DNA of 64,000 nt from Kaistia soli DSM 19436 (GTDB lineage Bacteria; Pseudomonadota; Alphaproteobacteria; Rhizobiales; Kaistiaceae). Every line of letters starts with the position of its first letter. Position 1 is the stretch's first letter. The position numbers were made by a program, and so were the translations under genes. Under the pieces are notes generated by a model that did no database searches, was not told where the DNA came from, and was given only the letters and a program-made list of their open reading frames with translations. The stretch spans positions 496,001-560,000 of the forward strand of contig NZ_FQUP01000003.1 of the NCBI RefSeq assembly GCF_900129325.1, written 5' to 3'. Positions 3,985 to 4,449 of this stretch are shown in pieces.

Positions 3985-4128
3985 TGCTGCCTTGCATCAT
4001 CCGCATTCCAGCCATGCGTTTTTTCCGGCTGCTCAGCGCGGCGGCTCACTCCTACATTCGGATCAACAAAGGGCGAGGCAAGAACCTAACGGTTGCCGCC
4101 CCAGAGATCAGATTGAAGGATGACCACG

Positions 4129-4278
4129 ATGAACCTCATCAACAGCTACAAGAATTGGCGCAAGTATCGCGAAACCTACAACGAGCTGGCGCGTTTGACT
4201 CGCCGTGAGCTCGACGATCTCGGCATCAACCGTGCCGACATCACCAAGGTCGCCCGCAGCGCGGTCGCCGGTTACTAA
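4129..4278 (+). CDS. DUF1127 small protein (YjiS/CcaF1-like)
   Basis: A 49-residue, Arg/Lys-rich protein: MNLINSYKNWRKYRETYNEL, then ARLTRRELDDLGINRADITKVARSAVAGY. This is the classic DUF1127 pattern, with the conserved RELDDLGI.R.DI core. I prefer the ATG at 4129 to the one at 4120 because GAAGGA (4115-4120) is then well spaced. Short DUF1127 proteins of alphaproteobacteria bind RNA; the Rhodobacter sphaeroides member CcaF1 affects small-RNA maturation and RNA turnover. Here the gene is followed at once by three CCTCCTCCC-type stem-loops, the same arrangement as ccaF1-ccsR1-4. A role in phosphate or carbon metabolism has also been shown for other DUF1127 proteins. Confidence 0.9.
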   Translation: MNLINSYKNWRKYRETYNELARLTRRELDDLGINRADITKVARSAVAGY

Positions 4279-4289
4279 GAATTCAGTTT

Positions 4290-4410
4290 CGCAGGGACGA
4301 ACCTCCTCCCTCGTCCCAGCGATCAGGCGGCTAGCGAACCTCCTCCCTCGCGACGTCGCCACCTCTGAGAAGCGCCCGCCGATCTCCTCCCCGGCGGGCG
4401 CTTTTCGTTT
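4290..4410 (+). ncRNA. Cuckoo-family (CcsR-like) small RNA with CCUCCUCCC loops
   Basis: Three stem-loops follow the DUF1127 stop. Hairpin 1: GGGACGA (4294-4300), loop ACCTCCTCCC, TCGTCCC (4311-4317). Hairpin 2: GCGA (4334-4337), the same loop ACCTCCTCCC, TCGC (4348-4351), extended by GGCG (4326-4329)/CGCC (4357-4360). Hairpin 3: an 11-bp stem 4370-4380/4393-4403 with loop GATCTCCTCCCC and a T-rich tail, a factor-independent terminator. CCUCCUCCC is complementary to Shine-Dalgarno sequences. The architecture matches cuckoo RNAs and the CcsR1-4 RNAs of Rhodobacter, which are processed from a DUF1127 transcript under stress. The exact 5' end is unknown, and it is open whether one RNA or several are made. 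Confidence 0.85.
4370..4406 (+). terminator. Rho-independent terminator ending the DUF1127/cuckoo transcript
   Basis: AAGCGCCCGCC (4370-4380) pairs perfectly with GGCGGGCGCTT (4393-4403) across a 12-base loop and is followed by TTCGTTT. The loop itself holds CTCCTCCCC, so the terminator doubles as the third anti-Shine-Dalgarno hairpin. Confidence 0.88.
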
Positions 4411-4449
4411 GTCTGAGCCTCCGTCCCCCGCTTCGAGCGCGGCAGATGG

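Follow-up and report, generated by a model that had tools for sequence, protein, structure and literature searches.

A DUF1127 gene followed by a three-hairpin ar14 RNA

The locus lies in a window of 64,000 nucleotides (the whole stretch of DNA that we analyzed) from the genome of Kaistia soli DSM 19436 and carries, on the forward strand, a small-protein gene (4129–4278) and, 5 nt after its stop codon, a small RNA (sRNA) of the ar14 family (4284–4406). The reading frame starts with an ATG at 4129 and ends with a TAA at 4276–4278, just as an earlier note on this DNA had placed it, and the encoded 49-residue product matched the DUF1127 family (PF06568; cut-off, 23.3 bits) with a score of 52.4 bits. 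A search of NCBIfam with the same protein returned no match. An alternative in-frame ATG at 4120 would lengthen the product to 52 amino acids. The genome (15 contigs, 5.23 Mb) contains five DUF1127 genes above the cut-off, four of them directly 5′ of an ar14 match. The role of DUF1127 proteins is unsettled, and the available text on the subject describes them as RNA-binding or PhoR-binding (PMC12501420).

Ten bases separate the stop codon from the first of three stems. Hairpin 1 (4289–4322) and hairpin 2 (4326–4360), both delimited by folding and covariation, present the same 10-base loop, ACCUCCUCCC (ACCTCCTCCC in DNA letters, at 4301–4310 and 4338–4347). Hairpin 3 (4367–4406), identified as an intrinsic terminator by the ar14 consensus, folding and covariation, presents the loop AUCUCCUCCC (ATCTCCTCCC in DNA letters, at 4382–4391). 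The anti-Shine-Dalgarno (aSD) motif CUCCUCCC is unpaired in all three loops, the third being one base off the full 9-mer. The earlier description of three hairpins 3′ of the DUF1127 gene, two with identical 10-base loops and the third a terminator, was correct to the base.

The covariance model of ar14 (RF02344) scored the RNA at 71.8 bits (E 5.7e-11; gathering threshold, 58.8), spanning model positions 1–123 of 123, and this was the single Rfam match in the whole window at gathering thresholds. The CcsR1 model (RF02791), run at relaxed limits, reached 30.1 bits, well below its gathering threshold of 65.3, and membership in that family was rejected; nor did the Rfam scan match the RNA to ar15 (RF02345). 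The covariance-model search that the earlier note had proposed therefore came out for ar14 and against CcsR1. Its view of a cuckoo or CcsR-type locus survives in part: a short DUF1127 gene directly upstream of an CCUCCUCCC-loop RNA is the CIN1/cuckoo arrangement, as CIN1 is defined in the accessible part of PMC10253847, and the RNA belongs to the cuckoo class of aSD RNAs, but its family is ar14 rather than CcsR1. The window RNA is a genuine, ordinary member of ar14 in a CIN1 layout.

Folding and covariation agree with this assignment. The interval 4279–4415 folds with −64.2 kcal/mol (z −6.4), a value equaled by none of 200 shuffled sequences. In an alignment of 45 distinct ar14 sequences, 93.9% of the cells were paired and 23 of the 36 pairs had changed on both sides, which gives the variable stems around a conserved loop that characterize ar14. 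The covariation score was 0.262, compared to 0.138 for shuffled alignments (none of 500 reached it) and at most 0.114 for structures slid along the alignment. A weaker measure, the number of further pair types, was 46 versus 41.8 after shuffling and was reached by 22 of the 500. We rejected the count of the 9-mer CCTCCTCCC as evidence because its frequency is unremarkable, both in the window (2 occurrences versus 0.61 expected, with 2 reached in 12 of 100 shuffles) and in the genome (38 versus 51 for the reversed pattern); the evidence is, therefore, the placement of the motif in the loops, the covariance model and the covariation of the stems.

The terminator that itself presents a loop had been regarded as the novelty of the locus. 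Yet a CUCCUCCC loop is already part of the terminator in the ar14 consensus, as also published (PMC10746234), and the available accounts of ar14 describe three hairpins with the motif in each (PMC10746234, PMC3927594). The form thought to be new is, thus, the ordinary form of the family. Variation of the motif does occur: in a close relative of the window locus (L206, G007:C1:859181-859303), hairpin 2 has CCTCTTCCC, so that the motif is changed and the stem kept.

The same note had attributed the 16-base repeat CGAACCTCCTCCCTCG (4298–4313 and 4335–4350) to a recent duplication of the first unit. Each copy comprises the loop and its three closing pairs. Among 53 ar14 matches of at least 55 bits, this cassette was present in hairpin 1 of 24, in hairpin 2 of 22 and in both hairpins of 15. 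Within the same genome, the paralog on contig C9 has it twice and the two copies on C14 have it once each, and other loci carry compensated closing pairs (CAA...UUG / CAAA...UUG, CUG...CAG, CCG...CGG, GCG...CGC). At the window locus, the stems of hairpins 1 and 2 are dissimilar outside the 16-mer and the likeness ends at the borders of the cassette. The recurrence of the 16-mer across loci and the covariation of its closing pairs argue against a recent duplication of hairpin 1, which we rejected; as judged from these alignments, the repeat is a conserved or recurrent loop cassette.

A LysR-type box and putative core promoter upstream of the gene

Conservation identified two operator elements and a putative core promoter upstream of the DUF1127 gene, all on the forward strand. 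The first operator element is a LysR-type TGC-N7-GCA (TGCATCATCCGCA, 3993–4005) of the published LsrB box form; with the next base it reads TGCA-N6-GCAT (T-N11-A), exact at 3993–4006. The second is a conserved operator half, CAGCCATG (4009–4016), similar to a portion of the VtlR motif CAATGCAGCCATGCA quoted in PMC12595884. The putative core promoter, TGCTCA-N17-TACATT (4030–4058), is conserved across relatives and would consist of a −35 element, TGCTCA, at 4030–4035 and a −10 element, TACATT, at 4053–4058, with transcription predicted to start near 4064–4067. A generic scan of the window locus for the TTGACA/TATAAT consensus found no promoter. Counted from the predicted start, the TGCA-N6-GCAT box lies at about −73 to −60 and would occupy the position of the published LsrB box of NfeR1, which has the same form and falls in the −72 to −60 stretch (according to the accessible text of PMC10746234).

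The upstream elements recur at related loci. TGC-N7-GCA was found within 200 nt upstream of DUF1127 at 51 of 52 loci (shuffled mean 6.6, maximum 15), and the CAGCCATG-like and TGCTCA-N17-TAnnTT elements that come next were present by strict pattern at 20 of the 52 (shuffled mean 0.04). The composite of box and core promoter (3993–4058) had four exact matches in the genome of the window, and these are the four DUF1127-ar14 loci; allowing up to three mismatches added 20 places, compared to 9 when the pattern was reversed. A form of the composite loosened at two bases yielded 38 exact matches in 25 genomes (0 for the reversed pattern), every one of them 41–291 nt upstream of an ar14 match. Permitting one mismatch added 19 places, of which 5 belong to ar14 loci; a single recurrent sequence makes up 10 of the remaining 14. 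In genomes G000 to G015, 9 of the 46 ar14 matches of at least 55 bits were without the exact composite and all 9 had TGC-N7-GCA. The short box TGCA-N6-GCAT alone is not specific, with 187 places in the genome. The new element at this locus is the promoter, that is, an LsrB/VtlR-type box tied to a DUF1127-ar14 unit. The earlier note described cuckoo RNAs as stress-induced; the conserved control element at this locus is the LsrB/VtlR-type box.

One operator-like site with three mismatches, a class for which the reversed pattern gives about 9 chance matches, precedes a 71-amino-acid frame elsewhere in the genome (L284, near 1501–1542; G000:C4:1736885). By eye the frame resembles a divergent DUF1127 protein, and it had no Pfam match at E≤1.

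Contig C4 encodes a LysR protein of 296 amino acids with a full-length match (E 3e-128) to the 9HH1 chain, deposited as LsrB of A. tumefaciens (Agrobacterium) according to the available part of PMC11975290. Its gene comes after one for a pyridine-nucleotide-disulphide oxidoreductase (thioredoxin-reductase-like), which we read as trxB. On the basis of this match and this neighbor, the genome has an LsrB/VtlR ortholog; NCBIfam supplied no LsrB/VtlR name for the protein. Next in order is a weak ar15 match (18.8 bits against a cut-off of 40, the second of three weak matches), from a search that also gave sub-threshold matches in 8 of 14 control genomes, and an operator with three mismatches lies 30 nt before this ar15-like stretch. 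The reported gene order in A. tumefaciens is trxB-vtlR-abcR1/2 (PMC7486931). Together with the synteny, the 18.8-bit match points to a putative AbcR RNA at this place.

Layouts of the locus across genomes

An ar14 match at E ≤ 0.01 was found in 33 of the 41 genomes searched, and 20 had one above the cut-off; none of the 14 control genomes did. The genome of the window has four matches above the cut-off and three weaker ones below it. Fifty-eight ar14 matches were taken for closer reading, 49 of them above the cut-off, and a DUF1127 stop codon lay less than 100 nt upstream of 45 of these 49 (39 of 40 in the same genus). In the genome of the window, a weak ar14 match of 36.3 bits (L005, 1501–1596; G000:C4:1192640-1192735, minus strand) sits beside a different small frame; by eye its minus strand has two motif-loop hairpins and may represent another cuckoo-like RNA that lacks a DUF1127 gene.

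In one relative (L193, G013:C3:138070-138273), the promoter lies 41 nt from ar14, DUF1127 is absent and all three hairpins are kept. An alignment with its relatives shows a gap that opens just past the predicted start and closes close to where the frame ends, although an assembly error is possible. The earlier note had proposed that the DUF1127 protein helps process the RNA; this relative keeps ar14 despite the loss of the adjacent frame, but its genome has other DUF1127 copies. As aligned, this is the promoter-ar14 layout of NfeR1 arising inside the genus.

Other layouts emerged when named genomes were scanned for pairs of motifs 20–50 nt apart. Among the matches listed, 59 of 120 stretches were alphaproteobacterial, as sorted by record titles (one is titled only Pseudomonadota), and a DUF1127 gene within 100 nt accompanied 22 of these 59 compared to 1 of the 61 others. 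That one (L159) comes from a metagenome-assembled genome titled only 'bacterium isolate RI_272', in which DUF1127 is followed by many motif copies. Four loci from Rhizobium, a Rhizobiales and Agrobacterium (L115, L137, L143 and L150) have a DUF1127 gene with its own box and then a multi-motif RNA; by eye, a GC-rich terminator without a motif loop follows DUF1127 in all four, and a further box stands before the RNA in three (not in L143).

The box was also common at the expected place before these clusters, counted over clusters far enough from the stretch ends and, in Rhizobiales, over those with at least three motifs. Among the matches listed, TGC-N7-GCA was so placed in 17 of the 31 Rhizobiales clusters that stand alone (shuffled mean 3.7, maximum 7), 4 of 7 Rhizobiales clusters with DUF1127 (0.5, maximum 3), 11 of 11 Rhodobacterales clusters with DUF1127 (2.0, maximum 7) and 2 of 5 Rhodobacterales clusters without it (0.5, maximum 2). 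A stricter pattern from the box to TAnnnT was found, among the matches listed, in 17 of 43 Rhizobiales clusters (shuffled mean 0.3) and 8 of 19 Rhodobacterales clusters (0.2). Eight CcsR-type clusters (L084, L093, L120, L133, L146, L147, L168 and L174) have a TGC-N7-GCA box with equal box-to-promoter spacing; L084 is titled Pseudomonadota and the other seven are Rhodobacterales by title. For R. sphaeroides the literature gives an RpoHI/RpoHII promoter (PMC10253847, in the part available), so the box in Rhodobacterales is an unverified lead.

Candidate targets of the aSD loops

The ar14 loops are complementary to GGGAGGAGGU. Sites of the form GGGAGGA-N3-11-ATG number 141 in the genome, versus 6 for the reversed pattern. 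We sampled 70 of the 141, taking the longest frame behind each site; 10 had no frame of 60 amino acids and 3 were repeats, which left 57 genes. As a control, 70 of the 102 sites of an AAGGAGA pattern (with a spacer of 4–10 bases, compared to 3–11 for GGGAGGA) gave 55 genes after removal of 15 without a 60-amino-acid frame (there were 0 repeats). Among the matches listed (25 of 51 families), the 57 GGGAGGA-site genes included 9 with SBP_bac_1, 4 with Peripla_BP_4 and 4 with BPD_transp_2. The 55 control genes had neither SBP_bac_1 nor Peripla_BP_4 among the matches listed (25 of 32 Pfam families in half the set). A different binding protein, OpuAC, occurred once among them, as did BPD_transp_2, ABC_tran and BPD_transp_1. 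The difference corresponds to a Fisher p of ~0.001 for solute-binding proteins (13 of 57 versus 1 of 55, presuming that the SBP_bac_1 and Peripla_BP_4 genes do not overlap) and 0.003 for 17 of 57 versus 4 of 55.

Perfect 9-nt sites number 38 in the genome, some within the RNAs themselves, and 11 of the 34 distinct ones examined precede a frame of at least 60 amino acids; the 11 include three solute-binding proteins with the site 5–6 nt from the ATG, an ABC ATPase and a protocatechuate dioxygenase subunit. However, in a genome of the same order with no ar14 match at E 0.01 (G037; 30 of 105 GGGAGGA sites sampled, 24 kept), up to 7 of the 24 GGGAGGA-site genes also encode solute-binding proteins. 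GGGAGGA sites, thus, make uptake genes accessible to an RNA of this kind but do not mark ar14 carriers, and solute-binding and uptake genes are a plausible class of ar14 targets, not evidence of co-evolution. In the window, the minus strand at 1855–1869 reads GGGAGGA-CAACC-GTG, complementary to the ar14 loops, with the GTG at 1857 as the likely start codon of a periplasmic sugar-binding protein (PF13407) 2.4 kb from the RNA. At the ribosome sites of DUF1127 genes, the longest match to the loops was at most 4 nt in 51 of 52 cases.

A model for the expression of the DUF1127-ar14 unit

From the family, structure, covariation and promoter conservation that we observed, together with the LsrB ortholog, we infer a single transcript, its activation by LsrB, its processing and its targets. 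In the best reading, which we hold at a probability of roughly three in four, one LsrB/VtlR-controlled transcript would give rise to both the DUF1127 small protein and the aSD ar14 RNA. A LysR regulator of the LsrB/VtlR type, presumably LsrB itself, would bind at 3993–4005 (about −73 to −61 from the predicted start) and activate a sigma-70-type promoter, so that the locus would be expressed as one transcription unit. Translation of the transcript would produce the 49-amino-acid DUF1127 protein and its 3′ end (4284–4406) would be the ar14 sRNA, either freed by endonucleolytic processing or acting within the message. Each CUCCUCCC loop could then pair with Shine-Dalgarno sequences of the GGGAGGA type and block translation, chiefly of mRNAs for the uptake of sugars and other substrates by ABC systems. 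The DUF1127 message itself should escape the loops, because its ribosome site hardly matches them.

The ar14 RNA could instead be made from a promoter of its own inside the DUF1127 frame, independently of the protein gene, as in NfeR1 of S. meliloti, which its own promoter drives directly (PMC10746234, available text). Stand-alone ar14-like loci in named Rhizobiales fit such an arrangement; among the matches listed, the strict box-promoter pattern, where present, mostly starts 84–91 nt before their first motif. We nevertheless consider it unlikely at the window locus, where the conserved box and core promoter of the genus lie upstream of DUF1127 and the gap between the DUF1127 stop codon and the start of ar14 is 5 nt; moreover, in the relative without the frame the very same promoter directly precedes the RNA. 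Less probable still is control by sigma factors of the RpoH type with maturation of the RNA by the DUF1127 protein and RNase E, as reported for the ccaF1-CcsR locus of R. sphaeroides (PMC10253847), with which the window shares the gene order. Here the conserved elements are a LysR-type box and TGCTCA-N17-TAnnTT, which leave room for a second promoter, and the CcsR1 model scored below gathering. That the hairpins are a mere terminator with pyrimidine loops is very improbable: the trans-acting role of the window RNA is itself read from sequence, but the loops are conserved while the stems covary, the relative that has no DUF1127 frame kept the promoter and all three hairpins, and NfeR1, of the same family, is reported to silence ntrB and transport mRNAs via its loops (PMC10746234).

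The single-transcript reading combines features of systems already described. For NfeR1, the silencing of ntrB and transport mRNAs, the redundancy of the loops and activation by LsrB are all published (PMC10746234, PMC7143759, as far as the accessible text goes). The ar14 family, to which NfeR1/Smr14C2 of S. meliloti belongs, shares with the window RNA the three aSD-motif hairpins, terminator included, and the LsrB-form box at the window locus would lie about as far from the predicted start as that of NfeR1; in NfeR1, however, the promoter drives the RNA directly, whereas at the window locus a DUF1127 frame stands between the two. The CIN1 locus of R. sphaeroides likewise has a DUF1127 gene, ccaF1, followed by and co-transcribed with CCUCCUCCC-loop RNAs (PMC10253847). 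It differs in having four RNAs, CcsR1–4, instead of one three-hairpin ar14 unit, a published RpoHI/RpoHII promoter instead of a LysR-type box, and a longer protein (71 amino acids for CcaF1, 49 in the window). Brucella and Agrobacterium have a VtlR/LsrB regulon in which the box precedes DUF1127 genes and an AbcR RNA (PMC12595884, PMC7486931), and the control of DUF1127 genes by VtlR has been described (PMC12595884). The available portions of these papers treat the genes as protein genes and mention no ar14 tail, unlike the unit of box, DUF1127 and ar14 in the window; the product of atu1667 was left undecided between protein and RNA (PMC7486931). AbcR (ar15, RF02345) is also an sRNA of the aSD type with, according to the papers, the regulator and target class in common, yet it is a separate family, which the window RNA did not match.

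The promoter evidence links two known regulons, the subjects of research lines that have so far stood apart: VtlR/LsrB control of DUF1127 and AbcR, and LsrB control of NfeR1. A search of the accessible literature found no paper that unites the box, DUF1127 and ar14; the paper defining cuckoo RNAs and CIN1 (Reinkensmeier and Giegerich, 2015) may describe part of it. A common operator, a DUF1127 frame lost in nature and loci with two promoters together suggest one switch with two outputs. It is an evenly balanced proposition that one operator of the LsrB/VtlR type with its core promoter was a common ancestral module and that a single nutrient-uptake switch yields both the DUF1127 protein and the aSD RNA. 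Such a module would have given a fused DUF1127-ar14 transcript in this genus, ar14 alone in the relative that lost the frame and, by extension, in NfeR1, and separate promoters for both products in Rhizobium and Agrobacterium, and several CcsR-type clusters of Rhodobacterales would retain its box-to-promoter spacing. In this framework one can test whether loss of the protein, of the RNA or of both underlies the phenotypes of DUF1127 deletions, and also whether the DUF1127 protein acts on the RNA that accompanies it. If the proposition is true, an attached or adjacent RNA may account for part of the phenotype of DUF1127 genes in the VtlR regulon elsewhere.
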